NCBI RefSeq assembly: GCF_037975245.1
Contig: NC_092570.1
Span: 2,871,501-2,935,500 of the forward strand
Direction of reading: 5' to 3'
Length of the DNA: 64,000 bases
DNA from: Apostichopus japonicus
Lineage: Eukaryota > Echinodermata > Holothuroidea > Aspidochirotida > Stichopodidae
Positions within the stretch are counted from its first letter, which is position 1. Every line of letters starts with the position of its first letter. The translations under genes and the position numbers were made by a program. Below, one piece after another: positions 5,783 through 61,369 of this stretch. The notes beneath the pieces are model-generated. The model had not been told where the DNA came from and made no database searches. It saw only the letters and a program-made list of their open reading frames with translations.

Positions 5783-6200
5783 AGGCCCAAGACAATTTTG
5801 AGAAGAGAATGTTTGATGGTGACCATGAGTTGTAGCTTGAAATTGAGGAAGTAAATTGCTCAACCAAGCAAAACCAGTGTTGCCTTTAGTGCTAACTACA
5901 GCAAGGCAACTCACACCTAACAAACGTGAAACTGAGAAAAGCTGCAAAATTATGATGCAAGCTGACATTTTAAGTGTAACATGCATTTCTGCACATTTCG
6001 ACAGTGGTTAGGAAGTCTTTATTTAGTTGAAAACAATATTTGGTGGGATTTTCAGAGGAATGTGGAAGCTTCTTTTGCATTGTTCCAGCATCTTCAGCTT
6101 CCTGCATTTTAAATGTTTTATGATCCTTGGTCATCGACTGTTTATTTCCACAAAATTAATCGGAAGGCATGGTCTTGACCATAGCATCATAATTCAAAGA

Positions 6201-7373: not shown

Positions 7374-7403
7374 TATCGCATATATATTATTATTATTATT
7401 TTA

Positions 7404-7761
7404 GGTTTACAGTCTTGTACAGGGCCAAGGCCCTTTCACACGACTTTTACAACTTAACCCTGATCATTGGTAACTTGTCACACCTACACACCAAAGTGTG
7501 CACAATTCAAACAATCTCTCCTGGGGCACCACAACCACGTGTCCCCCGGGGGCTTCCCATAGGGTGCAGCCACAAACCGGCGCACGCAACTATATTAAAG
7601 TTACCTCGCAAGTCCCCATTTATACACCTGGGTGAAGAGAGGCAATAGAGATAAAGCGCCTTGCCCAAGGACACAACGCAATGATCTGGCCAGGGCTCGA
7701 ACCTGTAATCCTTAGATCACAAGTCCACTGCCTTAACTAACCACTTGACCACAACGCCCTC
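7404..7761 (-). mobile_element. tRNA-derived SINE, copy 1
   Basis: On the minus strand the element starts gagggcgttgtggtcaagtgg. It has a box A-like tRNA head and a box B, GGTTCGAGCCC (complement at 7693-7703), then a body of about 280 bp, and ends in a (TAA)n-type tail seen on + as tattattattatttta. The body matches the copy at 42533-42899 almost throughout. The box A region carries a small insertion (ggttagttaagg against ggttaagg). It lies in the PARL-IFT81 intergenic region. The SINE class is clear; the named family is not known to me. Confidence 0.85.
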
Positions 7762-10590: not shown

Positions 10591-13500
10591 TCAGAGAACC
10601 AGCCGGTCCTCTCCGTCGACCTCGCTCCTGAAGATCTGCCCCGATTCTTCATGCTGGTCGGCCGAGAGGAAGCAACGTTTCTTGCATTCCATCAATGATT
10701 CAAAGTCCTGCCACATCTTCATCTGTTTCATACTGGGTCCATGACTCGCCTTGACTGCCTTCTGCTTCTCTCGAAGGCTCTGAGAGACGAAAACATGGGA
10801 AGACTTTCAGTGAGTAAAATTACACATGTAGATGTGATTCTATACGCTCGAAAAGCAACTAAATTAGCGACCAGGTTTCCTTTACCCTTTCCTGGTATAC
10901 TCAGGTATGACACTGATCGATGAATCATCAACATTCATCAAAAGTGTGATCGTCCAATGAGAAAGTCATGATGGGATTAACACAAGCAACGGTGATACAT
11001 CTGACCAAACCTGAGATCATACTAACCTGTCTAAGATTCACTAATTTATTCTATCAAGAATTTTCCTAAACATCTACTTTATTCTAAAATCAACTCCTTA
11101 CCACTTTTCCCTTTTTCTTTGATTTAAATCAATCATTGCAATCTTCTGGAATCAACATGGATAAATCTGATCAACACTGATACGTCTGATCAACATTATT
11201 GATTGATATTCTATCAACAATATTGATACATCTGATCAACATTATTGTTGTCTGATCAACATTGATACAACTGACCAACATTGACAAACCTGATCAGCCA
11301 GTAATACATCTGATCAATATTTACAAATTTAATCAACGTTGCTACAGTTGTCCAGCATTCGACATTCATACATCTAATCAACATTTTTTATACCATTGGT
11401 CAACATTAATAAATCTGATCACACACCGATGCATTCATCAACATTGATAGTCATCAACATGATACATCCGATCACACACCAATGCATTCATCAACATTGA
11501 TACATTCATCAACATGATACATCCAATCACACATGGATGCAGTCATCAACATTGCTACATTCATCAACATGATACATCCGATCACACACCGATGCATTCA
11601 TCAACATTGATACATTCATCAACATGATACATCCAATCACACACCGATGCAGTCATCAACATTGATACATTGATCAACATGACACATCCGATTACAAACT
11701 GATGCATTCATCAACATTGATACATTCATCAACATGATACATCCAATCACACACTGATGCATTCATCAACATTGATACATTCATCAACATTATACATCCG
11801 ATCACACACTGATGCATTCATCAACATTGATACATTCATCAACATGATACATCCGATCACACACTGATGCATTCATCAACATTGATACATTCATCAACAT
11901 GATACATCCAATCACACACCGATGCAGTCATCAACATTGATACATTGATCAACATGACACATCCGATTACAAACTGATGCATTCATCAACATTGATACAT
12001 TCATCAACATGATACATCCAATCACACACTGATGCATTCATCAACATTGATACATTCATCAACATTATACATCCGATCACACACTGATGCATTCATCAAC
12101 ATTGATACATTCATCAACATGATACATCCGATCACACACAACTGATGATCACCTTTCCGAGATTCTCCTGTTCTTGAATCTTCCTGCCGTACATCTCTCT
12201 GTAAGATTTCTTCCTCTCTGCTGGATCTGACGAGGTGTAGGCCTTCATCTCATCGGCCACTCGTTGCTGCTGTACCTCTATCATCTTCAACATACTATTT
12301 AAGTAGTGAAATCGACTCTCTTCTTGTGAACACTCCTCTTGCAACACTCTCACCTCCTACAAAGATTTTTTTAAAAACAATAAATAAAGTAAAATGAGAG
12401 AATCTGTTTGAATTTGCAAACATTTCCAAAAGCAAAGAAAAAATATGTAAAACTTATGTTTAGAATCTGAGTTAAGAGTAATATTTACATCATCCAACAT
12501 AACAAAACCAGTACCATGACAAAGGCTCAAGCCTCCCATTCTCCTTTTCTAACAATTTAATCACTTTGCTATATGATACCAGACCATTTCTTTCCCCATA
12601 ATGCAAAGTTTACTTCTCGTTCCCTTACTACAACTATATAAAGACAATACCTGTCTGGAAATGACTGCATTTTATGGACCGCATTTTACCTGTTCGAGCT
12701 TGGACCGATTACTCTCTAGTCCGGCACTCATTGTGTCATAGGTCATCTTCTTGTCATCGTAGTCTGTCTGCATCTCTTTGGCTTTCTCTCTCAGCGGTCG
12801 TAGCTCCTTGATGATCGGTGCTAGAGATGTCTTCTTGTTTGCAATGGATGCATTTAGTTTCATAACCTTTAAAAAAAAGGGGGGGAAATAATGCAATAAA
12901 TTAAAAAAGGCAGAATAAATCCATCTAGAAAAACTACTTAGCTTACAATCTTTATTCCATTCTTTACCATCTCAGATAATTTTTTGTACACTTACGAGTA
13001 TTGGTGAAACACCAATACTTCTATAGTGAAAGAAAGGTTTATGTTATATTGTTTCATTAATTCATTTAATTTTGACTCCTTACCATTCCTGACATGTCAT
13101 CTAGAGTTTTTCCTTTCATATCGTCTAGCTCACTTTTGATCGCTGAGACTTTCTCCAGTTCCTCTTGTGTGTCATGGTACCCAGAAACTCCCTTCTTGGC
13201 CTCCAACATTGACTGCAAAATGGAGAAAAAGTATTCCAGTGTAAGGTCTCCCTACTGTGATGAATATCAAGTCTGGGAATACTTCATGATAATTATTATT
13301 ATAAATTAAAGTATTACCACTTCTTAAATGCTAAAGGCAACATGCAGTCAAACAGATTACCTTCCAGGAAATAATTTAGTCTTTTACTTACATGGAAACA
13401 AATAACTTATCCTAAGCTTATAAATTTCCACTAGTTCAATTTTGTGAGAAAGGGGAATAAGGGTCCTTAGAAAGGGATACTCCAATGTGTGAAGTTGACT

Positions 13501-16500: not shown

Positions 16501-19500
16501 ACAGACCATCAATAGCTTAAAGCTGAAGATTCTTAGCTTGGTTGACAAGCTATTCTAGGGATGGCATCAGTAATCAAACATTTTCAATTTCAACTCATTC
16601 TGAATTCCTCAGATAAATTCCATGTGGCATGATCTTGTTGAACTTTTGTGAGCAAACCTTAAGAAAATTATACAAAAGTAAAACAAAGCTTCAAATTGTT
16701 TTAGTCTATTAGTTCTGACTGTTCACCAAAAGCAAGTTTTATAAGACAATTTTAGAGCAACAATCTTAACTTTACTCCAGATGATACAGGTCTTGCTTGG
16801 CTAATTAAAATAACCAATATGGATTTTGAAGTACAAAATAGGTGTCTCGTAACAATACTTAATCTGTATCCTCCACCCATCCAAACCCTTCCAAGTCGTC
16901 TCACAGAAACCTGTTCCATTTCTGTATAAATCCCTTTACCTGATTTCTCTGGTCTTGTTTCTGCTGCATACGAGTTTGCTGCTGTTCTTGCTCATTACGA
17001 TAGTTTCTGGCAACTTCCAACATCTGCTCGTGTTTCGGGACCGTTTCCACCTACAGGGGATAAAACAAAATTCATAATTATCATACACATATAGCAGTAT
17101 TAAAACATTACTACCAACTTGGTAACTTATACCCAAATAAATAAAGGTAATTGAATCAGATTTTCCCACAAAAAAAAACAAGATTTTTACTTACTTTCCA
17201 GCATTTGGAATCTGGACAGTTTTACCCCAAATTTGCAAATATATTAGATGGTCCTCATCCTACTTAGAACCAATTTTGCAAGATGGTTTAACACATTGAC
17301 TGCCAAAGACTGCTTAGTATTTTTGCACATTTGCCAGGTATTTCGTGACATTTCCATCGTCAAAATACGGCTGATATTCTTCTTTCGACGACTGAATACT
17401 TTGCCTTCTAGTATATGCCACAACAGTGAAATGAAATGTTAAGTTTCTCATGCAAAGCAGGATACTTATGACCAAGAGAACACAAAAAAGGAGCTTTCCT
17501 TTACCTCAATACCATAAATTATTTTAACTTACCCGTTTCTTCAATCTTTCTATCCTCTTGGAGACCTGCTGTTTCTCTTCCATCATGTGGTCAATATCTT
17601 TCCTAATATCTGAGGCTGAAAAGCCAGAAGTCTTCAAATTTTCGGATTCTTTGTGAAGTATCTTGAAGGTTTCTACCAACTCCTCATACTGCAAGTCGGA
17701 CAATGAAGCAAAAAATACCAAAATAAAAATTGATCATCACAGCTGAAACATTAAGGAACAGGTGTTACAACCATTCAAACATCCTGACACAGTAGATTAT
17801 CCACAGAGTTGTAAACCAATAAATTTGCGGTTTCACCACACTGAAACTAGATATGAATTTGTCTTTATTGACTTTCCTGCTTCCAAGGGTAATGAATAAT
17901 ATGTTACTCCTGCATCAGAGAGCCTGTCACGAAACCAAACTCTTTCTGTGACACTTTCTGTGACACCTCTTTCTGTGACAACTCTTTCTGTGACACCGAT
18001 AATGAGCAATTTGGTTCAGTTTGTTAAGTTCCTGTAAGAAACATTTTTCGCAATCTCAGATAAGTTAGTTAAGTCTGTTCCACTTATTCCGATTTGGAAT
18101 GCCATTTTGTAAGTGTAAATGGGACAAGTACAGACCCTGAGCTAAACACAGAAGCACATTGTAGTGTAAACCTTTCTGAATCAAATATAACTGTTGAACA
18201 AACCACACTAACATTTATGTTCAAAGGGTAATATTGCAAACCTTGCATTGTTTATGTGACACTACAATGTAATAAAATGATGGATCTACTAATTTAAAAG
18301 ACATAGAAAAATGACCAAATGTTTCATTCTGACGAACAAAATGATCTCACCTGTGCAAAAGTATCCCCTACTTGTTCATCTTGTAAGATGTCTGGCGGTA
18401 TATCCACCTTGACGAGGTACCGGCCCAGGTACGCTCGCTTCTTCAGCTCGGGTGTTTTCTGGAAAAGCCATACCAGGATGGGGTATATGACAGGTTTGTT
18501 TGCTGATACCAAACCTTGGCGAAAAGTACTCCTGATGGCAGAAACAGATGAACTAGCATTGCAAAAAAAAACATGCAGCAACAAACCTCTGCCAACAGCT
18601 ATGAGGACTGGTCAGGAAAACTTTCATCTAAGACTTGCACTGTCATGCAATTAAGTGTGCAGGTCAAAGGTTGTACGAATTTCAAACAATTAGATATCCA
18701 GCAGCCACAAACAAATCTTTGAGCAGTCTTTGAACTGCGCACAACTCTGCTTTTTTCCCGCAATGGACACAGCAAAATGAAGCATTATACCTATCATAGG
18801 GTTAAGCTTTAGGGTTCGGAACCACCCACTGTCCTGGTAATAGAATGGTAGCCAATACAAACTGACCAATGTAACAAGTTAAGGCTTCTATGAAACCAGA
18901 AAGGCCAATGTCACTTACAATCGCGAGAGTAAAGATTAACAGCTTTTTCTAAAAACTTACGGATCTTCCGTTGGCTTGTACTTGAGGATTTTCAATTCGT
19001 TGAGCATTCGTAGTGCAGTCTGGTCAGCGCCTTCCTCCCTGATGTCCAGCTTTTGCTGGGATAACCAAAAAAAAGATGTGAAAATCAAAGTGACAGAGAG
19101 TTTTGGTGTAACAGTTGTTAATCCAAACACTGCTAGTGTCAGTTATAGTTTTATCATGATCTCTGGCTACCAAAAAATGTTTCATAACTAACCCCAAAAT
19201 GCAAAAACCCTTGAGTTTGTTAAGAGATATCAACCTTTCAGGAGCTATTTATCCTTTTTAAAAAAGGTAACAGTTGTTCTCTTTGCTTGGTCTTATTGGA
19301 TATTTCTTAGATTAAGCTGAATGCAAATAGACGTAGGATACCAAAAACATTGCATAGCAACATTCACCAAACTCTCATAGCTTGTGGCTCCTTAAAATCT
19401 TGAAGCCCTTTACCTTCGAATGTCTCAGAGTCTCTGCCATTTCAACTGATATTAAGGACTTGGTTGATCTACAATTACGATTTGATATTGTCTTACAGTA

Positions 19501-20001
19501 ATAATCATTGATGTCATTAATATCCTAATGTAGTTCTTCTTAAAGGGTGTGAAGACTAACGCAAAAAGAAACGTCTTATGCCGATAATCTGACCTAGTTT
19601 CGAATGAAGTGTAAGCAGAAGTGTTAGACACCACCATTGATCCCAGAAAATACACACACAGCTTGCTACCGTCTGCATTTTGTAGCGATCAGAGAAACAC
19701 TTCACTTGCAAGCAACGGAAAGTTAACTTTTTCACAGGGCGGCACACGGTTTGGGGCGAGTCTTAAATGCCTTTAATCATTACATCCTTAAACAATATCT
19801 ATACCACCTATAATATTACATGAGATTTACAACGCCATAAAAATTAGTTCTTCATACCTGTGGGTTGACCTCTGCCAAGACATCATTTAGCACCTGCAGC
19901 AAATGCAAGGCTTCCAATGAGTCAAAGCTGATGAGATTATAATTCCTCTTGAATGGCTCCTTGTTCAGTTGTTCAACGATGTACTTGAGTTGTTCACTCA
20001 T
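10591..20001 (-). CDS. IFT81: Intraflagellar transport protein 81, 13 exons
   Basis: Exons in transcript order: 20001..19858, 19055..18961, 18531..18351, 17688..17533, 17050..16940, 16422..16338, 15866..15703, 15200..14958, 14247..14098, 13212..13084, 12866..12690, 12356..12153, 10779..10591. They sum to 2028 nt, 675 aa plus stop; human IFT81 is 676 aa. IFT81 is an IFT-B subunit that pairs with IFT74 and carries tubulin into cilia. Seen: the N-terminal calponin-homology-like domain (about residues 1-120) beginning [20 protein letters not shown]; the conserved TFRQGLV and [11 protein letters not shown] stretches; then charged heptad coiled coil to the C-terminus, including [23 protein letters not shown] and the terminal GEDRLVL. 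Every splice phase closes. No break or missing exon is seen. Confidence 0.97.
11150..12140. repeat. 55-bp minisatellite with 275-bp higher-order period
   Basis: Units carry gatgcattcatcaacattg and continue with a cacac-containing tail; successive starts such as 11811 and 11866 are 55 bp apart. A variant unit beginning gatgcagtcatc recurs at 11646 and 11921, exactly 275 bp (five units) apart, and the variant units after it follow in the same order. The first ~490 bp is more degenerate. The array fills most of IFT81 intron 12 and stops about 10 bp from the splice donor at 12151-12152. Confidence 0.92.
12997..13019. repeat. Perfect hairpin, 10-bp stem, AAA loop
   Basis: AGTATTGGTG, then AAA, then CACCAATACT, inside IFT81 intron 10, about 65 bp from the exon 10 donor. 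The function is unknown. Confidence 0.85.
17938..17998. repeat. Short tandem repeat (ctctttctgtgaca)4
   Basis: Four imperfect copies of a 12-15 bp ctttctgtgaca unit in IFT81 intron 3. Confidence 0.75.
19544..19772. mobile_element. TTAA-flanked MITE, copy 1
   Basis: TTAA at 19540-19543 and 19773-19776 flank a 229-bp segment. Its ends are imperfect inverted repeats (left AGGGTGTGAAGACT, right complement AGGCATTTAAGACT). The interior, for example cacttgcaagcaacggaaag and ggcggcacacggtttggggc, is repeated at 24194-24454. It lies in IFT81 intron 1 and has no coding capacity. Confidence 0.7.
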
Positions 20002-20300
20002 TTTTACAGCTTGCCTTCGTCCGTTATTGATATAGACAAAGAGACAGTAGCCTACATTAGTAAGATAAATAGGATAGTTAAAGTTTAGCTGACATTTCAT
20101 ACCAATAAAGATTACTGGTTAACATTTAAATATTTCAGTCAATTCTGAAAATTTACCAAGCAAATCAACTTTGAATACTTAATTACCATTATGCCTATAG
20201 GCTAGGGCCTATTTGCATGCAAATAGGTACAAAGAAAGAAGTTTAGTATAATGGTGTATGGTAACTTTGCATGTACTCTGGGTACTGTTGTAGGCCTACC

Positions 20301-23552: not shown

Positions 23553-24193
23553 GTGAGTCAAAGGTATAACTTAGTGTCTTGATTTCTTTGGACAGGCGCG
23601 CTAACACATTTTAGGGGAACTCCTGCAGCCACCGCTGCCCACACACTCTTGCTTTTCCTTATAGGCGTAGTGGGTTAGGCTTTATAACTATGGTAGTTTA
23701 ACTACGCATAAATTATAATACACTATATTGTTGATATGATCATGAGTTAAAAACGCAAAACAAAGTGCAGGCCCTAACTATTAATGGCAGTTTGACTGCA
23801 ACTACGTAGTAGGAACAAAGTAGACCCAGTGAACTATATTGTACACCATTCCAGTTTAACTGAGGTTACTTATACTTACAGTATAGCCTAGGCCCAGGTT
23901 GTCAGTCTATTCATATACCAAACGATAGTGCACTCAGCATTTTCTTTTAAAGAATTGAATTTTAACTATTATTTCAGTCTTTTACATCAAAGGTTTACAA
24001 CCATGCACTTGCTTTAAAAGAGGCTAGCTATCAAATATCTTGGACTATTTATAGGCTGTACCGCAATCACTCACACAACACCTGTAGAGCCAAGTTATAC
24101 TGTAATAGCCTGACAATTATCAAGATTTTAAACAAACAAACTATTGTTTATCTATATTGTTAACTTTAAAGTGTTCTTCTAGATGGCTCTTGA

Positions 24194-24454
24194 ATGGCAT
24201 TGAAGACTTTGCGCACAAAGAAACGTCTCATACCGATAATCTGACCTAGTTTTGAACATTTGAGGTGTACAGAAGTGTTAAGACACCACCATCGATCCCA
24301 GAAAATATGGACATCTCAGGTCTAGAAAAAGATAACAAGGTATCATGTTTCATTACTGTCTGCATTTTGTAGCGGAAAAAACTTCACTTGCAAGCAACGG
24401 AAAGTTAACTTATTCATATGGCGGCACACGGTTTGGGGCAAGTCTTCAATGCCT
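24194..24454. mobile_element. TTAA-flanked MITE, copy 2
   Basis: Same family as 19544-19772. The right end reads, on the other strand, TTAA then AGGCATTGAAGACTTGCCCC; the left end reads TTGA then ATGGCATTGAAGACTTTGCG. One TTAA has decayed to TTGA. The copy has about 30 bp of extra interior (around atggacatctcaggtctag) compared with copy 1. Confidence 0.7.
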
Positions 24455-25218
24455 TTAAGCAAGAATTATGCAGATCAGTTTAAAGTCTCAATACGTGTTT
24501 GCTGATGAATTTCAGAAAACAAACTCACAAAGCAGATTCAATGTTTCTTCTTCTGATCAGAATGCACTCCGACCAGGTGGGTTTAATGGAGAAAAGCTGT
24601 CGCAATTGAAAGAAGAAATTTATTTTCTGTTGGCCTTATGGCCCGAAAGATTTACCATAAAATCAGTGCGACCGCCCATATCAGCTTGTTCATTTAACAA
24701 ATGTAACCTATATATGTACTCATATCGTCCAACTTTTTTGACCCAATTCCATGGACACGTCTGAAGATAGCTGTTTATTCATTGCCATGGAAGGAAATGA
24801 CACAATTTTGCTAGCTACATCGGTAAGAAAGCTACTATTCAAGAGACCTAACACAGGCTAGCCATGAAAGTGAAAGTAAGACAGGCCTTGCAAATTTGAT
24901 GATAGTTTGTAGAATCTACTGACTCGTTAAAAAATCTGGCAAATTTGATTTAGCTCAAAATGTTAAACGACAGATAAATCAATAAAAATAATGCATAATA
25001 ATATGAAAATGTCATAGAACAGTGTCAGTTTTACTGAGCTTTCAGGGCAGTATATAAGTTGAAAGGTCAAAGTTTAAATTTGGCAAAACACACATTGAAA
25101 CTTTAAATTAATTTTAAATAATTAAAACAAGCTTTTGAATTTCTTGAAGTTGGTTACCTGTACTGTGCACTATATATTTTATACTGTTAGGAATATCTTT
25201 GGAGGCTCTAAAATAATC

Positions 25219-28200
25219 ATGGCAGATACAGACAAAGGCCAGAAGAGACAGGCAGAGGCTGACAATGGAACAACTGAGGAGAAAAAATTAAAAGCAGATA
25301 CAGAACAGGTAACAAAACCCATCTTTGAAAAAACCTTGTTTCATTTCTCATCATGGACATAAATATAAGCCAGCACATCTAGATATGTGACTTGGCAGTG
25401 GTAAAGTTATTGACAAGTTTGCATCTAATCAGATCATTACAAGTTGTGTTGTTCATATATGTGTGCCTCATTACCCTTATAAAACGATGCAATTAATGTT
25501 TACATAGCAACCTGCCATTTAATTTCTTGTTAAGAAAATTTGAGACTGTAAATTTTCCCCAAAATTAACTAAATGCGGAGACTGGTCACATGTCTTCCAC
25601 AATATCTGCAATATCAGATATAAAATACTTTACATTTATGCAAAAGATGCCTCCAAACTTGGCACAAATTTAGGGCTCTTAAAATGCAATCTGGATTTGG
25701 TTGCTAGGCTGGGCCGTATCCTACCAACCAAAAAGTTTTTAAAAGATTTTTGGCCCAATTTCAATCTTTTAGACATGTGGCAAGACACCATCAATTTCAG
25801 GCGATTCTGAGAGGGTCGACGTGGAAACGACCCAAAAATCTGTTGATTTGGCATGGATTGACCCATATATTTTCTTCTACAGGCCAGTGAGTCCCTTTTG
25901 TCAAAAGTTACTCATTTCAGAGAGGAGTGTGCAGCGTCCATTGCAGACTTCAACTTCAATAAAAAGAGAGTGAAGGTTGTATCTGATGTCAAAGATATGC
26001 CAGAGGAAAACGAGGGCATCCTTTACTGGATGATGCGTGACCAGAGAGTTCAGGGTAAACTTTCCTACCCAGCATATTTAACATAATATACTGACTGTGA
26101 GGAGGCAGTAAAATGGCTCCCATTCCTCCCGAATGTGTCAGACATATTTAATTACAAGACCTGGCAAAATCAGTGTTTGGATCCTGGTTTTAGTGAAAGA
26201 AGGTGCCTGGGACACAAGAATTGATAGTTATCGAAATAGCTGGTTATGGAATAGCAAAGTCTTGGTAAAAAAGTAACAAATGCCCAAAATATCTCTCTGT
26301 TCACTTTGCTTTGAACAAAGTTATGTTTGCAACTAATTTTTAGTGCCCAAAAAATTTCAGTAGAAACAGCCTCGGTCATTCCTCACTGGACACTCCCTTC
26401 CTGAACCTTGGACATCATAATTAATACTGATTCTTACTCTGTTCCACAGAATATATTATTTCCTGAGACATTTGTCTGCTCTGACTTTGTTCTTAAAAAC
26501 TAGTAATTAGTTCAAAGACTAGATTCGTAAGGATGTGAAAATTGACTCAAAAGTTGTCATTATTCCTCCGTTTGAATATGGATTGCAAATTCTAACTGAT
26601 CAGAGTTGAAGTATACACAATGGTCAGAATAATAGAACATAGATGTTAATTTTGATGTTCAAAAGAAGATGTTAATTACTTTGCATGTTTGCTTTTTGTT
26701 TTAATTTAAATAGATAACTGGGCAATGTTGTATGCCCAAAGACTGGCACTGAAACAAGAAGTTCCTCTTCATGTCTGTTTTTGTCTGGACCCATCTAACC
26801 TTCTTCCGCTGCGTCATCACAGTTTCATGCTGAATGGCCTCAAAGAGGTGGAACAGGTACACATATATTTGAGAAATGACATACTAAATGATGAATTGAT
26901 GTATAAGAATTTGCCAAAACTCAACGTGCAGCAAATTTATGCCTCTTGATGTAATGGAGATTCTCAGACAGGGATTGTGTTGATTGGTTAGATTCATGAT
27001 CTCTGAAGTGAAACCCATATTCCTGAGATCCCAGGTTTAGCAGGGAGAGATTTCTGGACTTACATGTTGAAATACATGTTTTGATTTAGATGAAGTTTAA
27101 TCAGAGGCCTTTATAATTTTCCAAGGAGTAAAGCAAAGATACAGTGCAGGGATCTAAGAGTAAGGTGATCTTTTTTATCAGGGCGTCTGGGAAATTGATG
27201 TCTGTATTGACCCCTTTGTGATGACTGTGAGGATCAGTTATACCTTGACTGTTATTAAAACTGCGGGGTTGTAATTTTAAGGACCTCTTAGTGTTTTGGT
27301 TTTCTATGTTTCATGGATGATCATCAAATGCCTTGGTTTAGAATCTAGCAAGAAGCATTTTGCAAAGAAAAATCCAGTGCCAAAAAGGAAAAACGGAACT
27401 TAAAGACCAATTATGGAGACTTTTCGATGAACATAAAATCCCACCATTTTGCATGTATGTAATCCTTAACTCACTCCAATTACATTGCTGTAATTAACTT
27501 TACCAATTTTGGACGTTAAATACGTGAAGAATGGGAAGAAAAGTCAGCTTTTTATGAAACCTACTTCAGACATTCCTGAAACATTCCGAAGACATCAGGT
27601 GACCCTGTGACGTCACTGTTTGTATACCTCACTCACAACAATACTTTTAGTGTGTAAAGTTGTATACTTGAGCTGCCAAAAACATCAACGATATTACTCC
27701 TTTTCCCCCGAAATGCCACAATTCTGTGTTGTTGGTAGTTGCAGTTATACCTCATCCACCAAAAGCATCAGCTTTTTTAGATTTCCAAGTAAAAGAACCG
27801 ACGTAAAACGCCGCAGACTTTGGATCAATTTTTTGAGATCCACGCGGAAAGATTTTTCAGCACCCGGAGTATCTCATGCCCATGAGTCCACATGCATGAC
27901 CCTGCTCTGTGTATGCTGCAAATGTCTCATTCTGCGAAAATTATATACTGTCGATAGCTGTGTCGGACCATGGTCGGACATAGCTAATGTGAAATTGACC
28001 GTAAACAAGCTCTGGACGACCTTACATGTAACATTATATCACGCAATTGACAGTATAATATTTACTGTAAGAGATGACCGTGTATATACCGTGCCTATAG
28101 GGTAGCATTGTTAGTACATGTAGTGAGTTGGCTCACAGCATGTGTAAATAGTCATGTTAGGATTTCATCGCATTTATCTATTTCCTTTGTTGTATTCCAG

Positions 28201-31200
28201 TATCGTGAGTTCGTGATACATTGTGTTATATTGTCCGTTATGTTTATTCCGGCATCTGCATGGTCCAAGGAGTTGAATAAAAACGGTTCTATGTAGCGAT
28301 CGGACGTTTTATTTCGTTAGTGACTGTCTTGTGATTGTTGGATGTAACTGGTCAAGGCCTGTTTCAACTAGACCTAACTCTATGGAATTACACAGAGTCA
28401 CGGTAGTATTTCGCCCAGGATTGAACGAGAAACGTGGATTTGGAAATTCAATGCTAAATTTTGTTTATTGAAAGGATACTTTTTCTGTGTTTGTACTTTT
28501 GGATATTAAAACGAGTAAGTACTATGTTCAGCTGAAGCTTAGTCATGTATATGCTACCCTGGTCGATTCGGGTCAGCGTCTTCTCGTAGTTGTTCGATTA
28601 TGTTTAGTGTCTTTTTGGTAATTTGTTGACAGTAACGTAAGCCATTTTCCGTCACATTTCACGCATGAGGCATCTTTTAGGTCTATTCTTCTGTTCAGTT
28701 TACGGTATCTTGCGATCAAATTGTATTACGGAATCGCCAAGCTGCTTGCATGTTCTACAGTATATTGTACCGTATGGACCTATTGACGCTCCGCTATGTA
28801 AAAGATGCTTCCATTTGAGTGGAAATTTTGCTAATAAAATAACCAATTTAACTAAATTTTCTTCTTAAAATTGTCTTAAAACTATTTGTTTACCTTCATG
28901 TGTTCTTGTTTTAAGCTAACAGCTTTTCAACGCTCAAAATTGGAAGTCAAATACAGTACAATTGTTCGCTATCTGTGTATAAACAGTGCCTATATCAGCA
29001 TTTGATTTTCGCGGTATACAAACAATGACGTCACACGGTGACCAGAGGCTCCTTTGGGTCAATCTCTGTTTTCAGACATTCCAGAGGTTCATGTCACGTG
29101 ACTACCCAAAATGTCCATTTTCGTGGTCATTTTTTGATGGGTTATAGTAGGTTTTCGAAGATTATTTTTTACATATGTTGATTATAGGTATGTAAACTCC
29201 CAAATAAATGGAAAATCCCCCCCCCCCCAAAAATTGTCTCCATAGTTGGTCTTTAAGGGAATTGGAAATTGGAATTGGAAAAGGGAATTGGAAATTTATC
29301 ACCCTAAGTATAGAAAGAAATTTCCATGTGAATTTAGGCTATGAAAGTATTGAATGATCTGGGGTGCCTTACATTTGTAGTTTGTAAACAATCACAGTTT
29401 CCTTCGAGCTGTCTCTACCAACGGAGGTACAAGGGCCTTCTTAAAAATTCAAGGATATTTCCAAGACATTATAGAAAACCGTCATCATTATAGAAAAAAA
29501 TCGTCGTCCCCAAAATGTTTGGGGATGACTTTCTTCAGGGGACAGCATGTGATTATTCCCTGCTCTACTCATTTTACTTTTTATATGATATCAATATGTT
29601 TGGGAAAAATGTTTGGGGACGACTTTCTTCAGGGGACAGCATGTGATTTATGGGGACTGTCCCCGGATATACAAAAAACAACTGGTCACCTTATCAAAGA
29701 GTGACTCATCTTACAAGAGTTTACAAGAATGATGTAGATATTATGGTTTAAGTTTCAGGAAACCTTCAAAATTGCCTCACAAAATATGAACATTAAAATA
29801 TTCCCTACTCAAACACTTTTTTTATGATATCAATTTCTAGGAACTGAGCAAGCTGGACATCTCCTTCCATCTTTTGATTGGAGAAACTGCAGAGACAATT
29901 GCCAAGTTTGTTGGAGAGAAGAAAATTGGAGGGCTCGTGGCAGATTTCAGTCCATTGAGGAAACCCCAAGAATGGGTCCAAGATGTGGCCAAAGCAATAC
30001 CAAAGAATATCCCTTTCTGTCAGGTTAGGAAAAATATAAAAAATGTATCAAAACCAAAATGCAAGGCTTAAAGGGATAAACAGCACAGATGACAAATAAC
30101 CATGGCCATTACTCCACTCCCCCTCCCCTCCCCCACCCCACCTCCTTCACCACTTCATGGAACCTGAACACATTTGATGAGGGTATGATTCCTACAGGCA
30201 CTACAATGCAGTAATCACTTTTCATTTAATCTGTTGAATATAGGTGATATGTCACATGATCCAGAAAACAGATACATGTTTTCACATGTCATGGATATGT
30301 CTTGGTTAAGGCATGCAATTCACTAGAAGCAATTCAGGTCCTGGATACTTTTCTGATATAGTTGAACTATGCAGCCAATTGACAAAGTTCTGCAAAATTT
30401 GTTTTATATCCAAAGTGATTCAAGCTATTGCTTTGTAAGACTCCTTGAACCTACCATCTGTCCCTCCCCCTCCACCTCCCCCTACCCACTCCATCCCAAA
30501 AATATAAATCTTACAATGTTGAAATGGAAAATAGAAACTTGATGATCTAAGTATGAGAAGCATTAGAAGTTAAGAAAGAGAAGAGTTGGGAAAATTTCTT
30601 AGTTTTGTCTTGTCAACTTATTTAATTTCTGACAGCCATGTACAACCATGCCTTCATCATGGCTGAAAATAAACACGGACATTGCTGCCAAAGGCTTAGA
30701 GGTGTTAATGTTTAGAGTTTATTCACAGAGTGGAATCTTAGGTACAATGCCACTGACTTGGTTGGTTAGCCCCGGTCCTCTTCAGAACAATTTTGCCCCT
30801 CCCTCCCAACCCACCCCCCTAAAAAGGAATTAGGACTTGCGATGTGTATACCTTACTCTCTCCACAGTTTTGTTTTCTACAAGCACCTGCACAGTAGTCA
30901 TTTTCTCAGTTTTTTGTGAGATGTTCATTTCCTATGAAACTTTTCAACGAACAAATTCAAAAGCTGTGAACACATTGCATTGTTTCAAGAGTAGATCCAG
31001 TGAAATCGAACTGTTTTTAGCTTCAACATTATTTCATTTTACCAAGGCCTTATCATTCATTGCTTTTATGGTGGTAATTTAGGTACCAACCATTCAGTAC
31101 TTTTCCACACCCTTTCTAATTCTTCCTTTGTGATGATGTGATTATTCTACAAACTTCAAAACCTACTGTTGAAATATGTAAGGTCATTAAGTCTTCTTTG

Positions 31201-34200
31201 CTGTTGTTGATATTTACTTGGCAGGTGGATGCGCATAACATTATTCCCTGTTGGGTCACTTCAGAGAAACTAGAGTATGCTGCTAGAACCATCAGACCAA
31301 AGGTACACAAGCAACTTGGATCGTTCCTGACAGAATACCCACCAGTCACTGTTCATCCGCACAAAGCAACGACAAAGCATGAGGTATGGCTTGAGAGAAT
31401 ACCATGAAATATATCTATTGGCACTTAAAAAAGTGCTTGTAAATCTCTTGAAAATATAGAATGCTTTCAGGCAAAGAGAACATTCAGATAAATGGCTTGC
31501 TGGAATCTCTAAATATTCATTATTCTTGAAATGCACTATAACATTTACAGACTTAATACAGATCAAAGAACTTCTTAACTCATGCTGTGAAAGTGTCCAT
31601 TAGCTATAGGTTGTCAACTGTTGTGAATATACAGTAGCTTCTTTATAATATTCTTGTTTATCAATATCAACTTGACTGCATTTGTTCGTTTTCCAGGCGG
31701 TGAATTGGGATGAGCCCATGAATGATCAGAAGGTGGACCGTTCCATTACAGAGGTAGATTGGGCAACCCCTGGTTCCACTGCAGCCTTCGACATGCTAGA
31801 ATCTTTCGTGAGGGACAGACTGAAAGTATTTGCCACCGAGAGGAATGACCCTACAAAAGAAGCCTTGAGTAATATCTCACCTTGGCTTCATTTCGGTGAG
31901 CAAGAATGTTGACATAGCACCTTCTTGTCTTAAGAAATTTCCCTGTCTACTTTGCAACACTGCAATTAGTTGTGTCACTGACAAGTAGCATTTCGGCAGA
32001 GATGGTGAACAGACCTTTGACCTACTTTCCCACCCTCACCCCACCCCTTTCACACCTGACTTTGCTATATGATACCATGTGTTGAGCTGGATTGTTAAGT
32101 CATCCCAAGTCATCACTTACACTAGAGATGCAGATTTAGGAGGTGGACTCCAGGTTTTATAAAATTTTGTTTGAAAAAAATTTTTGTTTTGACACTTTGA
32201 GATCATCCTTACTTGATTGTCCAAGCCCGATGCAGGCCATTGTAGGGCCCAGAAAAATATTAGATAAATTGTCTTCTCACATTTATAATAAACTTTAAAA
32301 CAAGAAAGAAGATCTTGCAAAGGAATGCCTTACATAAATACGACATAATTGACAATATAGCTGGATTAGGCCTTGGTCTCTATGCCTCTTCGAGCTTCCT
32401 CCAAGATCTAATAGATCAAAAAGCCTTGTGCTGTTAATATTTCTGCATGATTCTGGCAACGTCTTCCGAAATCTTATCAATTCTTTCAGGTCAAATCGCT
32501 GCACAACGATGTGTATTGGTGGTTAAACAATTCAAGAATAAGTACAAGGATTCTGTCGATAGTTACACTGAAGAGCTGGTCGTTCGAAGGGAACTGGCGG
32601 AGAATTTCTGTTTCTACAACGAAAAGTATGACTCCATTGAAGGTTGGTATTTTGTTTCATCTGGGTTTATTCACCAAACGACAAACATTATGAAGAACGT
32701 ACGCAACTAATTCCATCGGGAATGTGATGTTTCAAATATTCTATCACAAGTGGGCCCCTATATAAAATCTCTTCAGAGTATGTATGTTTTACCTGTTCCT
32801 TGCTGAGAGGTTCTGCAGGTGGCAGCATTAAGAGGGATTTGAAAACCAGGCCATGTGGTCCATAGACTGCACTCTGCCAACTGGTTGTTTAAAGGCTAAT
32901 GCTCTATCCTAGCTTAATCAGAAAGTTTTCAGGAGAGTAATGCCGTGACAATCTTGCTCTCCTTGCCTAACTTATTCTTCTGTCATTCTTATTCCGGTCA
33001 TTTTGGTCCAGTTTATGAATGCTGGGCTGAATGAACAGTTTATCAGTTACCTAAACTTAACATTTTCATATCATCGCCTACTTGAGTATCAGTGGGCGGG
33101 AAAATGCAGTAATGGAAAGTAAAGTTTTGTCATTGCATGTACTTGTCAGTAGGATATAGCACAGGTGCCTAACATGAAAAGAGATTCAAATTTGTCTACA
33201 ACACAAGTTTGGACTATTCCATATGCTAGCGTCCGATATATACATTTCACGTTATTTGGTTGCTGAATGTTTGTCAATTGAATTGTCACAGACATTTTTG
33301 AGTCTGCTTGATATACTTTCATGTCATAATTTCATTTTTTTTTTTTGTCTCCTATAAAGGAACAAACGAATGGGCTAAGAAAACTCTTGAGGTACACGCA
33401 GGTGACGAAAGGAAGTACATCTACACACAAGAACAGTTTGAAGAAGGGAAAACTCACGAAGACCTCTGGAATGCTGCGCAGGTATGAGCACTATTTTCTT
33501 AGGCATGTTCTATCAAAGTTAGGATTTAAAAAATTTCATTAAGAGAAAATTTGTATCCATCATTACCACATAAACGTCAAGTTAAATTGTCTCTATTTCA
33601 GTGGTGTTCATGAATGTAGCTAGATCATAGATTTTATCACCAGGTATCCCAAAAGTTGGCAATATTTCATACAAATTTATGAATCTGTTTTTCTTCCTGT
33701 GTTAAAACAAAGTCATTAGCCATTAATTAGCATGTCTATTGTTTTTTATAATATTTTTTGCCTCCATGCTGAGTGCTATGAACTTGTATCAGAATTGTAT
33801 ACAAGTCACTGCATTAAAGATCAACTGCAACCATAAGCAGTACTCCTTGTCGAGTCTTTTACTTGAGGCAAGTCACTGAATGTATGTTTCCTATGCAGAA
33901 AAACTTGTCACACATATGTTCTAATCAGTTCAATTTTGATATCTAGTGACTCAACGTCAAATTACAACAACAACAACCTGAAATGAGTGTTGATTGTCTT
34001 GAGGTACATTATCCGCAACTCGCACAGATCATTTATTTGACAAGTTATGTCAGTATATTTGTCCTGCTGGATTTTCATACTGCCTTAGTTTGCAATCACT
34101 GCCTGCTGCACAAGACCACCAGTAAAGAAAGAATTTTAACAATTTCATAATTTTGCCTGTAATGGTTTGCTTCGATCAATCAGACTCAACTAGTACAAGA

Positions 34201-40827: not shown

Positions 40828-43800
40828 ATGGAGGAAAATTATAGTGGTAACTTTTCAGATAAGAACTTCTTCCGGTATCACTAAACTTGGCGTATCGTTA
40901 GGCCTAAATTACTCTATGGAGTAGCCTAGGTTATGTTGAAATTAGACACGCCATAGCCTATGCCTAAGTTAGTAACAGGTTTGCCTAACTTTCTGTGAAC
41001 CTGTAGGCTGTGGTTGGTGAGCAGTCAGACTGATGTTAAGCTAGCCAGGCCCTAGCCTATAGGCGTACGACCGATAGTTTACCATAAGTTTAGTGAGAGA
41101 TTGATAGTTGACAATATTTAGCCCTAGGCCTCATTGGCTTTTATTCACATTTGGGAACACAAGGAGCATCAGGATCCCATTTTCTCCCAGAGAGGTAGTA
41201 AAGCAGAAAGGTCACATTAATTGGTAACGATTCAATGAGGGCTTTGTTCAGATATATGTTCATATATTACTAGTGTATCAGTTTGTGCAGATGTCAAGTA
41301 ACTGGAGATTGGGTCAAGTGATCTCATGAGCGTCCACACTACAAGTACAATCTCTTGTGTCTCTCTTGTGAGACCAGTATCCTCCCTGAAAGGGAGATAA
41401 TGATTGTGGGGTCTAATCCCCAGTATGCGAGTATCCACAGTACAATCGCCCTTGAGGGGTCACATCCTCCTTCCATTCTTAAATGTTAACAAGGCAATAC
41501 ACTTTTAAGGACAAGATATGAGCCTTTGTTAAAACAAAGAAACAAGTTAATCATCAACTTTAGGCCAGGGCCTAAATGAAACAGGGCCTAGGTCTCTTTG
41601 TAAACATTTCTTAAACGTTTGCTGTGTTCTTGATCTTGTTCATTTGTAACACTTTGCCTGAATGGTGTCTGAAAGTGATACAGACTGTACTTATTCCATG
41701 GATCTTCTTCTGGGAGAAAACAAAACAGACTGGTCACAGAGAGTTTTACATATTTATTTTTTATTGTTGCAGATCCTGGTGATAGTGATGGAGGATCCAC
41801 TCCAGTACAAGATGAACATGAAGATATTGAGGTATTGTTCATACAACAGACAAGAATTGAAGCAAAGCAGATAGTCACAAAGAATAATAATATATTCGGA
41901 GATCATTTAAGCTTCAGAAATATGTTTCAGTTTTAGGCCTCCTTAACTGGTAAAAACAATATGCTCATTGCTATTTGAAGTGAGAAAAGTCCTCAAAGGA
42001 TGACAAAAGATGATTGCTTAGCAAAACTGCAAGAAAAATTTACTTCCAAACTATATTTGCATAGATATCACTTTAATGATGCAACTGGAAAATGAAGGGT
42101 TGATTTTCTGTTGATGTTGAGTTCAATGCACTTTGCCAACTTGTGTCGTCTGTGAGACATATACTTTACATTAGAACAAATTCATGTTGATCTTTTGAAT
42201 GCTGTGTTGATTCCAGGAGGAGGATTTACCGGAAGCCGATCAGGATGTAGCAGTATCTCCAGTGACAAGTCCCAAAGAGCAAGACGAAGATGAAGAGAGA
42301 CAAGAAGCTGAAGAAGGTGAGGTGCCTTATGATGAAGAGGAGGAGGAGGGTGAGGAACAAACGGAGCCTGGAGAGGAGGAATGGAAAGGAAATGCAGCTT
42401 CAGATGCTGAAGGTAATATTGACACTTTGACAGCCTGGCTGAATTTTGCAATGATTGTCTGATAGTCTGAGAATATTACATTTCTATTCGGACAAACTCA
42501 TTCAAACTAAAAAAAAAGTTAAAAAAGTTGAAGGTTTACAGTCTTGTATGAAGCTAATGCCTCCTCACACGACTTTACAACTTAACCCCTGGTCATTGGT
42601 AACTTGTCACACCCACACAACAAAGTGTGCACAATTCAATCAATCTCTCCTGGGGCACCACAGTGCACCACAACCACGTGTCCCCCGGGGGACTTCCCAT
42701 AGGGTGCAGCCACAAACCGGCGCACGCAACTATATTTACAAGTTACCTCGCAGGTCCCCATTTATACACCTGGGTGAAGAGAGGCAATGGAGATAAAGCG
42801 CCTTGCCCAAGGACACAACGCAATGATCTGGCCAGGGCTCGAACCTGTAATCCTTAGATCACAAGTTCACTGCCTTAACCACTTGACCACAACGCCCTCC
42901 CAAACTATCCTTGAGGTTACTCAACCCACAGACAGTTTAAAACAGATCAGTCAGATATAGTATTTTATTATGTATATACTTCTGTTGTTGAGTATTAAAC
43001 CAGCTTTGCCTTTCGAATATAGAAGAGACTCCTGTTTTGGAATCAGCAGAAAAGTTTCCAACAAAAACTTTATCCTATCTGCTAACTGCAATTATACTGG
43101 GTACCAAAAATTGTTAATCACCGACTTCAAAACCAATCCCCCGACCCCCAGATATTAGTTTGAGGGGAAAGAACAATTTGAAAAGTGTTACTTGTTGTTT
43201 AAAAAGGAGGTTAAAGAGTAACTCTTTAACTTCCTGTTGGTCCAATATACAATAGGAAAGTAATTAAATGAAGTCTAAATCAGATAAGTATTGTACATTA
43301 TGAATAATTAGCTGTGTAACATTCATATCTATGATGAATAATGTGAAATGATAAAGAATTACGTTTTTCTGTTTGGTCTCGTAGGAGGGGAGGTAGTTTC
43401 TGATGCCGAAAGTGAAAAAGAACAAGAGGAGGTGGGAGAGGTACAGAGTGAAGATGAAGCACAGGCGGAGGAGGAGGAAGACAGAGGAAGCGAAGAAGAT
43501 GGGGAGGGTCAGTTTGATCCTATTTCTCCTAAGGAAGTGGAACAGGAGGAAGGAGAATTTGATTCTTCCAAAGGTAAAAAAACAGGCTATGACATTTTGC
43601 TCACATGTGCTAGCTGAAAATGAAATGATTGTCGAGGATAAGACACGACGAGTTGTCTGTACCAGCAGTGTCACACGTTCAAGTAAATCCTTTCGTAGAA
43701 GAAAATATGGTGGGGAAATCACTTGAAAGTAGATTACAGCCATGAGAATAATTTTCTTGAAATAATTGTAACGTTTGACAACACTGAGAATTGGAAGAAT

Positions 43801-46800
43801 GTAATTTTGTAAAAAGTTACAACAGTCTGTTATTAGTGCCAATGCTAGTTTACGGATTGTTTATTGTCTCCAATTGATCTTCAACCTTGCTTCAATATAT
43901 TGTGTGATTACTTGATGAACGGTCATCTGTCAGTATGTGACACTCTGGGTTATAGCACGTTTACTGTCTGTTTTAGGGATGGATATAAGGAAATACAGGA
44001 TTTACGGTTTACTCAAAAAAATTATAGTGGTACATATGTGCAAATTTTCTGTTACAACTCTAATATTGACAGAAATGGTGGACTTAAAAACTTGATCATT
44101 TATGACATACATTTATGCTAATTATGTTAGCAAGTATGCGATTCCTGTTGCAATTTTAACTTAAGGAGAGAAGAATGGCTTCTGCAGCACAATAAAACCA
44201 TTACTTTGAATAACTATAACTGAGGTCTAGATCTTAATATTATATAGTATGTAATCAAAATTCACAAGTGTGTCAATAGAGTAAACATTGTTTGTTGGTA
44301 CTGTTTACATTTCCAAAGTGGGTGGAGGGTTTGGATGTTAAATTGTATCAGGTTTTAGTGGATGGTCTAAAAGCCAAAGTGTATAAAATGTGGCTGATTT
44401 TAAAGATACTGGATTAAATGTGGCGTCCTTTCATAAAACTCATCTAGAGGAGGAAGGTTTGGTTGAAACTCACGCGGAACCAGAAGAGGATAAAGAAGAT
44501 GAAGAAGACGGAGGAGAGGTGTCAGATGGAGAAGTTGCTGAGAGGATAGACGAAGGAGGAGAGGTATCGGATGGAGAAGTGGCCGAGAGGATAGATGAAG
44601 GAGGAGAGGTGTCAGATGGAGAAGTTGCTGAGAGGATAGAGGAAGGAGAAGAGGTGTCAGATGGAGAAGTCACTGAGAGGATAGATGAAGGTGGAGAAGT
44701 TGCCGAGAGGATAGATAACGAAGGAGAGGTGTCAGAAGGAGAAGTTGCTGAGAGGATAGATGAACGAGGAGAAGATGCCGAGAGGATAGATGACGAAGGA
44801 GAGGTGTCAGATGGAGAAGTTGCTGAAAGGATAGATGAAAAAGAAGAAGATGCCGGAATAGGAGATGTGGATGATGTGTCTGCAGATGAAGATGACGTAC
44901 AAGAGAGTGGAGGTAAATGCTTTGTCAATCAATTAGTCATGTGTACTATATGAAAGTTACAGATGTATACACTGCTGGGGAAGCAAGATAGGATTGGACG
45001 AATATCTACTTTTCGTTAAACCCCAACTTTTTATACCGAAGTTATTCAAATTGCTAAGGTACAAGTAACAGTGATCTGTCATTGATATTACTGGTAGAGT
45101 CACTTACTGTACAGGTCAAATCATGAGAGTATTGGATGATGAAAGACTAAGTGAAGTTTGGACACAGTATTGCTATACCAGAGTCTACCTGTAATTAAAT
45201 GCTTCTTTAATTCACAGTGTTGCCAATTTTTGGTTTTTTTTTTTGCCATTTTATGGTTTTCAGTAAATCTTGTCAAATATGTCGTCAAATCAATATCCAA
45301 GTGACAGGGATAGTTCACTTCAGGTTGAAAAATTGCTTAGCTCTCATCTTAAGTTTTTTATTTTTTTATTTATTTATTTATTTTATTTTATTTTATTTTA
45401 TAGTTTTTGGTTCCTTGCTAAAAGCAAAGGAACCTATGTATTCAGGTTGGCGTGTGTGTGTGTGTATGTATGTGTGTGTGTGTGTGTGTGTGTGTGACGC
45501 TTAAGCTTGTATGCACGATAACTCAACAAGGGATTGACTGATCATGATCAAACTTGGTGGGTGGGTGGCCCATAGTGAGTAGATGAACCCTATTGTTTTT
45601 GGTGCCCACAAAGGTCACCAAAGGTCAGTTATGGTCCAAAAACCCAAAATACTAAAACTGCAATAACTCCCAGTGCCAATGTGCGACAAGGTTGATATTT
45701 TGGGACAAGTTGTGAACTGGTTAGGGAAACATTTTGAAACTTAACGGTCATGTGATGTGAGGTCACCAAAGGTCAATTAATGTTAAAAAACTAGTTTTTT
45801 TGCGATAACTTGAGAACGAATTGTCCGTTAGGGTTGGGAGTTGCTTCAGTGTAATCCAATTGTCGACCCACATCTGGGTGACCCTTGACCTCAATTTGAC
45901 CTCTGGTGACCTTTTCATGTTTTGGGGATTTTTACAGTTTCGATGCTATTTTCAGATGTCAAAGGTACCTTCCGATCATAAATATCGATAGGTTGACCCC
46001 CGTGTGACCTTTGTGTGCGAACTTATAAGGGGTCAAAGTTTTCGGTCGGAGTTAGGATGGCTGTAAAGACTTATCGTGTTGATTTTTGGAATCAGCAGAT
46101 CAAACTACATTTGAAACCAAGGTCAAAAGGTCAAAGGTCACATTAGAAAAAATGTGCTTAGTTTGGGAGAAAACGGGCGAAAAAGAAAATGTTTGGTTTT
46201 GATGCTAGATTTGGATATCAAAGGTACCTTCCGATCAAAAATGTCAATGGGTTGACACCCGGGTGACCTTTGTGTGTAAAGTTATACAAGGTCAAAGTTA
46301 ATTTTCAGACATTTAATGCAATAACTCCCAGGGCCAAGGTGTAACAAGGTTGATATTTTGGGACAAGTTGCAAATGGTATAGAGGAATATTTTCAAACTT
46401 AACGGTCATGTGATCCGAGGTCATCAAAGGTCAATTAATGTTAAAAAACTAGTATTTTGGGTGAGAAAATGGGCAAAGAAAAAAATGTTTGAATTTTTAC
46501 AGTTTTGATGCTATATTCACGTCTCACCAATCAAAAATGTCAATAGGTGTACCCCAGGTGACCTTTGTGTGTGAAGTTATATGAGGTCAAAGTAAATTTT
46601 CAGACATTTAGTGCAATAATTTCCAGTTCCAAGGTGTGACACAGTTGATATTTTGGGACAAGTTGCAAATGGTATAGGGGAATATTTTCAAACTTAACGG
46701 TCATGTGATCCGAGGTCACCAAAGGTCAATTAATGATAAAAAACTAGTATTTTTGTGATAACTTGAGAACGAACTGTCCGTTAAGGTTGGGAGTTGCTTC

Positions 46801-49800
46801 AATGTAATCCAGTTGTCGACCCGCATCTGGGTGACCCTTGACCTCAATTTGACCTCTGGTGACCTTTTCGGGTTTTGGGGATTTTTACAGTTTCGATGCT
46901 ATTTTCAGATGTCAAAGGTGCCTTCTGATCATAAATGTCAATAGGTTGACCCCCGTGTGACCTTCGTGTGCGAAGTTATACGAGGTCAAAGTTAATTTTC
47001 AGACATTTAATGCAATAACTCTCAGTTCCAAGGTGTGACACGGTTGATATTTTGGGACAAGTTGCAAATGGTATAGGGGAATATTTTCAAACTTAACGGT
47101 CATGTGATCCGAGGTCACCAAAGGTCAATTAATGATAAAAAACTAGTATTTTGTGATAACTTGAGAACGAACTGTCCGTTAAGGTTGGGAGTTGCTTCAA
47201 TGTAATCCAGTTGTCGACCCGCATCTGGGTGACCCTTGACCTCAATTTGACCTCTGGTGACCTTTTCGTGTTTTGGGGATTTTTACAGTTTCGATGCTAT
47301 TTTCAGATGTCAAAGGTGCCTTCTGATCATAAATGTCAATAGGTTGACCCCCGTGTGACCTTCGTGTGCGAAGTTATACGAGGTCAAAGTTAAAAAATAT
47401 TAATGAGGTCACAGGTCAAACGTGAAAAACTCCCAAGTTGCAATAACTTGGCTACTATTTATTGGAATTTCGTCAAACTTGGTATGATATTGGTAGATAG
47501 TCTCCACACACTGATGTGTGTTGCAATTGATATCATGCATGTTTATAGGGGGGGGGGGGCCTAGCATTATTTCGTTATGAAAAGTTTGTATGCACAATAA
47601 CTCAACAAGGGAATGACCAATCATTACCATACTTGGTGAGTGGGTGGCCCATAGTAAGTAGATTAACCCTGTTGATTTTGGTGCTCATTTCATGAATATT
47701 AATGAGGTCATGGGGTCAAACGTGAAATACTCCAAATTGCAATTACTTGGCTACTATTACTAGTCGGAATTTCGTCAAACTTGGTATGATGATAATGGTA
47801 GATAGTCTTCACACACTGATGTGTGTTGCAATTGATATCAGGGCTTAGCATTACTTTGGCAACAAAAGTTTGTGAGCATAAATTACTGTTGTTGTATTAG
47901 GGCTTTGTTAGAAATTTCCCTATGAATGGAACTAATGAACAGCAGCAAGGAACCATGAAATGTTTTCATTCTGGTTTATTTATTTTTTATTGGTTTTTTA
48001 TTTTATTTTATAATAAATTAAATGTTGTTTTGCCTTTTATTCTTGGTGTAGAAGAGCATACAGTTAAGTGACTTTTTTTAGTCATAGAAATTTCAATGCA
48101 TGTCATTGGCATTTGGCTTTTATCACTTAGAACTGGAAATTGCTGAGAGAGAAGAAGAGGAAGAAGAAAATGAGGTTGAAACAAATGAGAATAAGGAGGA
48201 AGGGGAGGTGGAAATGGCGCAGGAAGATACACCCCTCTCCCCTGCATCTAACATCGATAGCCCGGAACAGTTTGATGATGAAAAGGAGAGGGAGAGTGGG
48301 GGTGAGGATGATGACCAAAGACCCCTTGAAACGAGGAATGAAGGAGAGGAGATGGAACAAGAGGAAGAAGTCGATGAAGACAGTAGTCATCAAAGAGAAG
48401 AAGTTGGCGATGGTAGGGAAGATGCTCAGGGAGATACAGAAATGTATGAAGGCGGTGAGTGAGAAATGCTTATATGGAAATGTAATGAAAATGGGCAAGG
48501 AGAGAGGAAAAGAGATTGAATTTCTAAATTTAACAAATATTCAAGGTTTTTGAGCTATGGCCCATCTTCCTGATTAAAGATTTTCTTTCAAGTTTCTCTC
48601 AATTTGTTCCTTTCTTTTCACTTATGATTTAAATTTGCATGCATTGATTCAGAAGAGATACTCTATTTCTATACTATTCTGCCCCTCAGTAAGATATAAC
48701 TTTGGCACTCCAGTCATGTCATCCCTTTGATCATGTGAAAGTGAATGGTTCATGAAATTGATCGTTAAATTAAAATGAATTCAATTAAAGTGATTAAAAT
48801 AATTTAATTAATTACTTAATAAAAATTAAATCAGTTAAACTAAATTAAATGAAAGACACAACAAAGTTACTCTGAGAATGAGCATACACATACTGTTCGT
48901 CTTCATAATCAGTAATAATGTTTTGTTTTTTTGTTTTTTTAAGCAGCTGAACAAGTGAGTGACATTGAAGATGAAGATAGGCAAGAAGGTGAGGTTGAGG
49001 GAGATGGACGAGAGAAGGCACAGAGTGATGATGAGAGGAAAGGAGAGGCAGACAGTGATGACGGAGAGGCTCCATCCCACAAGGTGACCGAGGAGACACC
49101 CATGAGCCCTGTGGACGGGCTAGGTCAGTACAATGTCTGCCACATTCAACAGCTTTTTTTTTTTATCTCTCATTTAAACTTTATCCCCTCATTAATTTTC
49201 ATCCAATATACATACATTCATTAGTTACTGTTTTATACTCTTTATTTTCAATTTGTGAATAGATGCGGTTAGTGATGATGAAGATGATGTTGGCGACGGA
49301 GACAAGCCAAACAAAGACGCCGAAAGTGGCGAGGAAAGTGATGAGGAAAAGTAAGTTTTATACCAGCAGCCATTCCTGCTCCGGGCATCATCCACATGTT
49401 CGTTCCCCTCAAGCCCATCTGTGTCCCTATTGGTCAATTGAATGAGAACATAAACCCATATGGGATGGGAGTATTGAGATTTTGTTAAAGAACCTCACAG
49501 ACATTATTATTTTATAATTATCGTTTATAAATGAACAAGTGCAGTATTGTAATTCTTTTATTCATGTGTAATAAATAAGAAACAAGTCACACTCCCAACT
49601 CAATAAAAATATGATATTCTGTAATATCATATGAAACAATGTCTTCTTTTGCTCCTTTTATTTAAAAACAGAGGACTGATTGCAGATATCTTTGGTTCTA
49701 GTGATGAAGAAGGTGAAGAATTTGAGGTAAGGAGGAAGAATTGTTGTTGTGTGTAAAACAGGTCTCAGACAGACACGTCAGATGTCAAACGATTTTTTCA

Positions 49801-61365: not shown

Positions 61366-61369
61366 ACAT

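Follow-up and report, generated by a model that had tools for sequence, protein, structure and literature searches.

What kind of mobile element occupies the intron of a photolyase gene in Apostichopus japonicus, and could the protein start that it carries still act on DNA? To address this, we analyzed a window of 64,000 nucleotides (the whole stretch of contig NC_092570.1 from 2,871,501 to 2,935,500; positions below are those of the window). The features described here indicate that positions 27404 to 29252 probably represent one inserted DNA transposon of the Kolobok type, non-autonomous and with its interior deleted or replaced.

The host intron is delimited by two photolyase exon frames on the plus strand. 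The upstream frame (26710 to 26856, start not defined) corresponds to residues 53 to 100 of photolyase chains and to positions 13 to 60 of the Pfam DNA_photolyase profile, and the downstream frame (29841 to 30071, end not defined) corresponds to chain residues 104 to 162 and profile positions 61 to 125. Their Pfam scores, 22.0 and 25.6 bits, respectively, both fall just below the cut-off of 26.6, and the two parts of the profile adjoin exactly across the intron. As for splice signals, the intron begins with a GTACAC donor at 26857 and ends with a CTAG acceptor at 29840. The flanking exon frames and the splice signals therefore confirm the location in a photolyase intron that was originally predicted. 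A further frame at 31676 to 31912 matches photolyase chains (E = 1.3e-10), with no Pfam match at an E value of 0.01. The photolyase gene (26710 to 31912, plus strand) lies head to head with IFT81, seen as calponin-homology exons at 18324 to 20118 on the minus strand. We also observed two repeats in the same intron just outside the element: a 13-bp unit (GGAATTGGAAATT) present three times at 29258 to 29296, immediately beside the right TTAA, and a 43-bp direct repeat at 29512 to 29648, with two copies that are 94 bp apart and 98% identical.

The insertion measures 1,849 bp in plus orientation and is flanked on both sides by TTAA (27400 to 27403 and 29253 to 29256), a putative target site duplication. 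Its termini read AG...CT and are formed by 17-bp terminal inverted repeats with one mismatch between them; the left repeat (27404 to 27420, plus strand) starts with 5'-AG, within a tip that begins AGACC, and the right repeat (29236 to 29252, minus strand) ends with CT-3'. With the TTAA included, the arms span 21 bp and still mismatch at one position only. When TTAA-anchored 21-bp inverted pairs with at most one mismatch and starts 100 to 6,000 bp apart were sought, these tips were the sole pair in the window, and none appeared in 10 dinucleotide shuffles of it. The TTAA-flanked inverted ends of the original prediction are thus upheld as a pair beyond chance. Since TTAA is self-complementary, a single copy cannot prove that it represents a target duplication, and it may instead be part of the repeat.

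Internal to the tips and separate from them, local alignment and motif counts revealed a second pair of inverted repeats, each of 34 bp. The left one, which holds TGACGTCA, lies at 27595 to 27628 on the plus strand and the right one at 29013 to 29046 on the minus strand. They start 191 bp (left) and 206 bp (right) inward of the tips and match at 30 of 34 positions (88% complementary). Local alignment of the 320-bp ends gave a score of 48, which none of 2,000 shuffles reached (maximum, 32). A null based on window sampling was set aside, as random placements may overlap the element, and its maximum equaled the observed score. The 22-bp core of the repeat, GTGACGTCAYTGTTTGTATACC, occurs at only these two places in the window with three mismatches allowed, against 0.00 expected. 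Deeper inverted arms around TGACGTCA had been proposed, and the alignment bears them out at a length of 34 nt. The possibility that each end is one degenerate repeat some 240 bp long was also considered and rejected, because the spacers align equally well in 346 of 1,000 shuffles. Weak similarity between the ends was seen in the last 40 bp ahead of the subterminal repeat (21 of 1,000 shuffles as good) and less in the 83 bp internal to it (69 of 1,000). Because the spacers between them are dissimilar, the tips and the subterminal repeats are two discrete blocks.

The element also carries an open frame of 164 codons (27611 to 28105), a length that 4 of 500 shuffled versions of the element attained, and within it an ORF of 130 residues from an ATG (27713 to 28105, plus strand). 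All three ORF forms tested matched the Pfam THAP profile (PF05485), the 69-residue form with 29.8 bits and an E value of 1e-6. This score exceeds the curated cut-off of 23.9 bits and is not background, which was the check proposed at the outset, and the predicted THAP-type start with a Cys pair, FxxFP, Trp, and FxxP is present as C5, C10, FRFP, W37, and DFSAP. The closest solved chain is THAP domain-containing protein 2 (E = 0.0049). The match is limited to profile positions 1 to 46 of 87, corresponding to residues 5 to 50 (27725 to 27862), the N-terminal half of the domain; it halts there with the reading frame still open, and the remainder of the ORF matches nothing.

As described for Xenopus Kolobok, THAP motifs comprise a C2CH signature, P, W, and F residues, and an AVPTIF box (PMC6004289). 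The second half of the domain was not found in any frame, either with Pfam or with two simple motif searches. No C-x2-H pair lies downstream of the THAP start in any plus frame, the three occurrences in six frames being one on the minus strand and two in plus frames upstream of the ATG; none of the six frames contains an AVPTIF-like box. Two of the four zinc ligands are therefore missing from the THAP domain of the ORF. By the motif definition (PMC6004289), a C2CH site reduced to half should be unable to coordinate zinc, and since neither the C-x2-H pair nor the AVPTIF box was found, the ORF should not give a working zinc finger. A nested insertion splitting the domain was rejected, as the second half is absent from all frames. 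Structure prediction yielded no usable model of the ORF (mean pLDDT, 35.8). At the three codon positions, G+C is uneven in codons 1 to 50 (0.28, 0.54, and 0.38) and flat in the later codons (0.45, 0.42, and 0.42); nothing was drawn from this, because the pattern of codons 1 to 50 is not typically coding. A 32-nt imperfect palindrome with longer arms is located at 27938 to 28063, with an unremarkable DNA fold (z, -1.9; 8 of 200 shuffles as good).

The six frames of the element were then searched with X at stops. No DDE or other Pfam transposase domain was detected in any of the six at E values up to 10, and no family other than THAP scored above its cut-off. One minus frame matched Ntox34 with an E value of 0.23 and 12.1 bits, below the cut-off of 25, and this was set aside as chance. 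Rfam gave no matches in the window. Since no frame holds a DDE domain, the class assignment rests on the ends and the half domain. The window contains no second copy of the element. When as many as two mismatches are allowed, the short tip TTAAAGACCAA occurs 40 times in it against 41.6 expected, a count so close to expectation that it gives no sign of further relatives there, and a 22-nt match to 5789 to 5810 (E = 0.028) was discarded as chance. In viral contigs, 62 stretches fit the peptide pattern of the THAP-half protein and none was confirmed; the tip and subterminal motifs gave no matches in any of four scans of viral contigs and prokaryote genomes. These misses say little, because such collections are not animal genomes. 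THAP domains are described as confined to animals (PMC7776569), which suggests an animal host.

Kolobok elements duplicate TTAA, their 5'-RR termini set them apart from piggyBac (PMC9587614), and all ten full-length Xenopus copies carry AG at both ends, with TTAA in 19 of 20 flanks (PMC6004289, Table 5). With Kolobok (XKol of Xenopus, PMC6004289; lineages, PMC9587614), our element shares the TTAA flanks, the 5'-AG termini, which follow the 5'-RR/YY-3' rule, the short terminal inverted repeats, and a THAP start, which sits at the N-terminal place expected from Kolobok transposases. It differs in its conspicuous 34-bp subterminal inverted repeats and in the absence of the DDE and H2CH parts that accompany THAP in the Xenopus transposases (PMC6004289), as well as of a complete THAP domain. 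Because such a loss is expected in a decayed copy, the missing THAP half bars the term functional but not Kolobok descent, and a DDD/E transposase with the Kolobok signature is also lacking in non-autonomous members. T2-MITEs, presumed to be non-autonomous Kolobok elements, resemble the element in their TTAA target, AG-start tips, and lack of a transposase; their tips read AGGRR, whereas those of the element read AGACC, and the element also keeps a gene remnant. The ends of piggyBac are CC, and its combination of TTAA with non-5'-RR termini is not that of the element, which ends in AG. ISL2EU also has a THAP transposase, but it duplicates AT within AATT and usually has GG ends (PMC4482050), in place of the TTAA and AG observed here. 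The TTAA flanks, 5'-AG termini, and N-terminal THAP start fit Kolobok best, ahead of P, piggyBac, and ISL2EU. Hence, the original reading of a Kolobok-like, non-autonomous element with a THAP remnant is supported, while its notion that the DNA-binding part was kept is not supported, as only half of the THAP domain remains.

Against a Kolobok insertion, it should be considered that there is no second copy in the window, that the TTAA is self-complementary, that no catalytic domain is left for classification, and that THAP occurs in P and ISL2EU transposases too, with P-type elements known for subterminal repeats. A non-autonomous member of the P superfamily (THAP9-like), with the TTAA incidental or within the repeat, nevertheless seems improbable. 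P elements do combine an N-terminal THAP domain with 31-bp tips and 11-bp subterminal repeats (PMC7776569), and zebrafish P copies are described with 13-bp tips, 12-bp subterminal repeats, and 400-bp spacers, so that P elements, zebrafish Pdre2, and Anopheles P-MITEs share with the element the THAP domain, the terminal and subterminal inverted repeats (17 and 34 bp here), and internally deleted copies. However, P elements duplicate 8 bp (PMC7776569), and none of 15 symmetric boundaries showed an exact 8-bp duplication, the best reaching 6 of 8; the tip sequence is also different, with AG where Pdre2 has CAT. About as improbable is some other or unknown class of transposon with 22-bp tips from CTTAAAG and a 4-bp GGAA duplication, the TTAA lying within the repeat. 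The tips indeed gain one complementary base beyond the TTAA, and once the repeats are extended to CTTAA, GGAA stands as a direct match on both sides. Nevertheless, direct matches of at least 4 bp at such offsets arose in 1,000 of 20,000 random site pairs (5%), and we know of no THAP transposon with CTTAAAG tips and a 4-bp duplication of the GGAA type, which counts against this class.

Two further proposals concern the ORF. The half THAP could correspond to exon 1 of the transposase gene, with an intron inside the THAP domain and the later exons deleted, which would refine the Kolobok reading. The clean end of the match at codon 50 in an open frame is consistent with this, as are the long non-coding stretches normal in autonomous Xenopus copies, which measure 6.8 to 13.9 kb around coding regions of 2.3 to 2.4 kb (PMC6004289). 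Yet no GT with at least 6 of 9 donor-consensus positions, by a simple consensus, lies between 27840 and 27988, and we consider the refinement rather unlikely. It is hardly credible that the ORF gives a working short DNA-binding repressor of relatives, comparable to the 207-residue KP protein of Drosophila; the length of the open frame and the repressors encoded by some short non-autonomous P elements (PMC7776569) would favor it, but the ORF lacks the AVPTIF box along with half of the zinc site, and the codons past 50 match no family.

The preferred reading, a Kolobok-type insertion, draws on paired tips and paired subterminal repeats, both beyond chance. In such a scenario, a transposase supplied by a full-length relative at another genomic site would have recognized the 17-bp tips, and probably the 34-bp repeats too, and the element would then have been pasted into an intronic TTAA. 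Before or after insertion, its interior would have been deleted or replaced. The two ends would have been kept along with the 5' portion of the former transposase gene, which may be why the first 50 codons of the THAP domain survive. The P-MITEs of Anopheles, in which both ends are kept around unrelated interior DNA, provide a precedent (PMC1562414). THAP domains of P and Galileo bind sites inside the tips (PMC7776569; PMC3688188), which makes the 34-bp repeats, by analogy, good candidate binding sites. We tentatively propose, as a possibility and no firmer, an element of Kolobok type whose two-part ends resemble those of P, and whose 34-bp repeats would serve a THAP transposase as a pair of docking sites. 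If so, the terminal-plus-subterminal layout of P elements would be common to THAP transposons that target TTAA, and relatives sharing the two-part ends would offer a simple case in which to compare end recognition by Kolobok and P transposases. The literature search turned up no Kolobok element described with subterminal inverted repeats, which is weak evidence of absence since most subscription journals lie outside the search; the subterminal passage in PMC4298943 is about a hAT element.

Today, the element is most likely an inert passenger that would be spliced out with the intron, and no sign of present function was found at the sequence level. The suggestion that it might still bind the termini of relatives is unsupported, given the half THAP domain. 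Structure and probable class had thus been read well and function over-read: a THAP start in a sequence does not imply a functional zinc finger. The element is of an ordinary kind apart from its two-part ends, and it provides a clean example of THAP-type transposon decay, with recognizable ends and a gene cut through its DNA-binding domain.

Other repeats were observed elsewhere in the window. A different element of 229 bp lies between perfect TTAA sites at 19544 to 19772, between two IFT81 exons. Its AGG-type tips match at 14 of 18 positions (TTAA included) and resemble the AGGRR described for T2-MITEs, presumed to be Kolobok; they differ from the tips at 27404 to 29252. A degraded relative of this short element, with TTGA at the left, is located at about 24194 to 24454, inside an inverted repeat (24163 to 24486) that extends past it. 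A TTAA-anchored 21-bp inverted pair with three mismatches and no further extension spans 24480 to 25106 and may be chance, because the 10 shuffled windows gave one pair at up to three mismatches. A dispersed repeat family has members at 7403 to 7740, 42532 to 42941, and 54808 to 54980; two copies are in direct orientation, with segments 85 to 96% identical, and one is inverted and more diverged. Finally, tandem arrays occupy 61369 to 62560, 11400 to 12139, and 46530 to 47393, their repeat units measuring 45, 55, and 398 bp, respectively.
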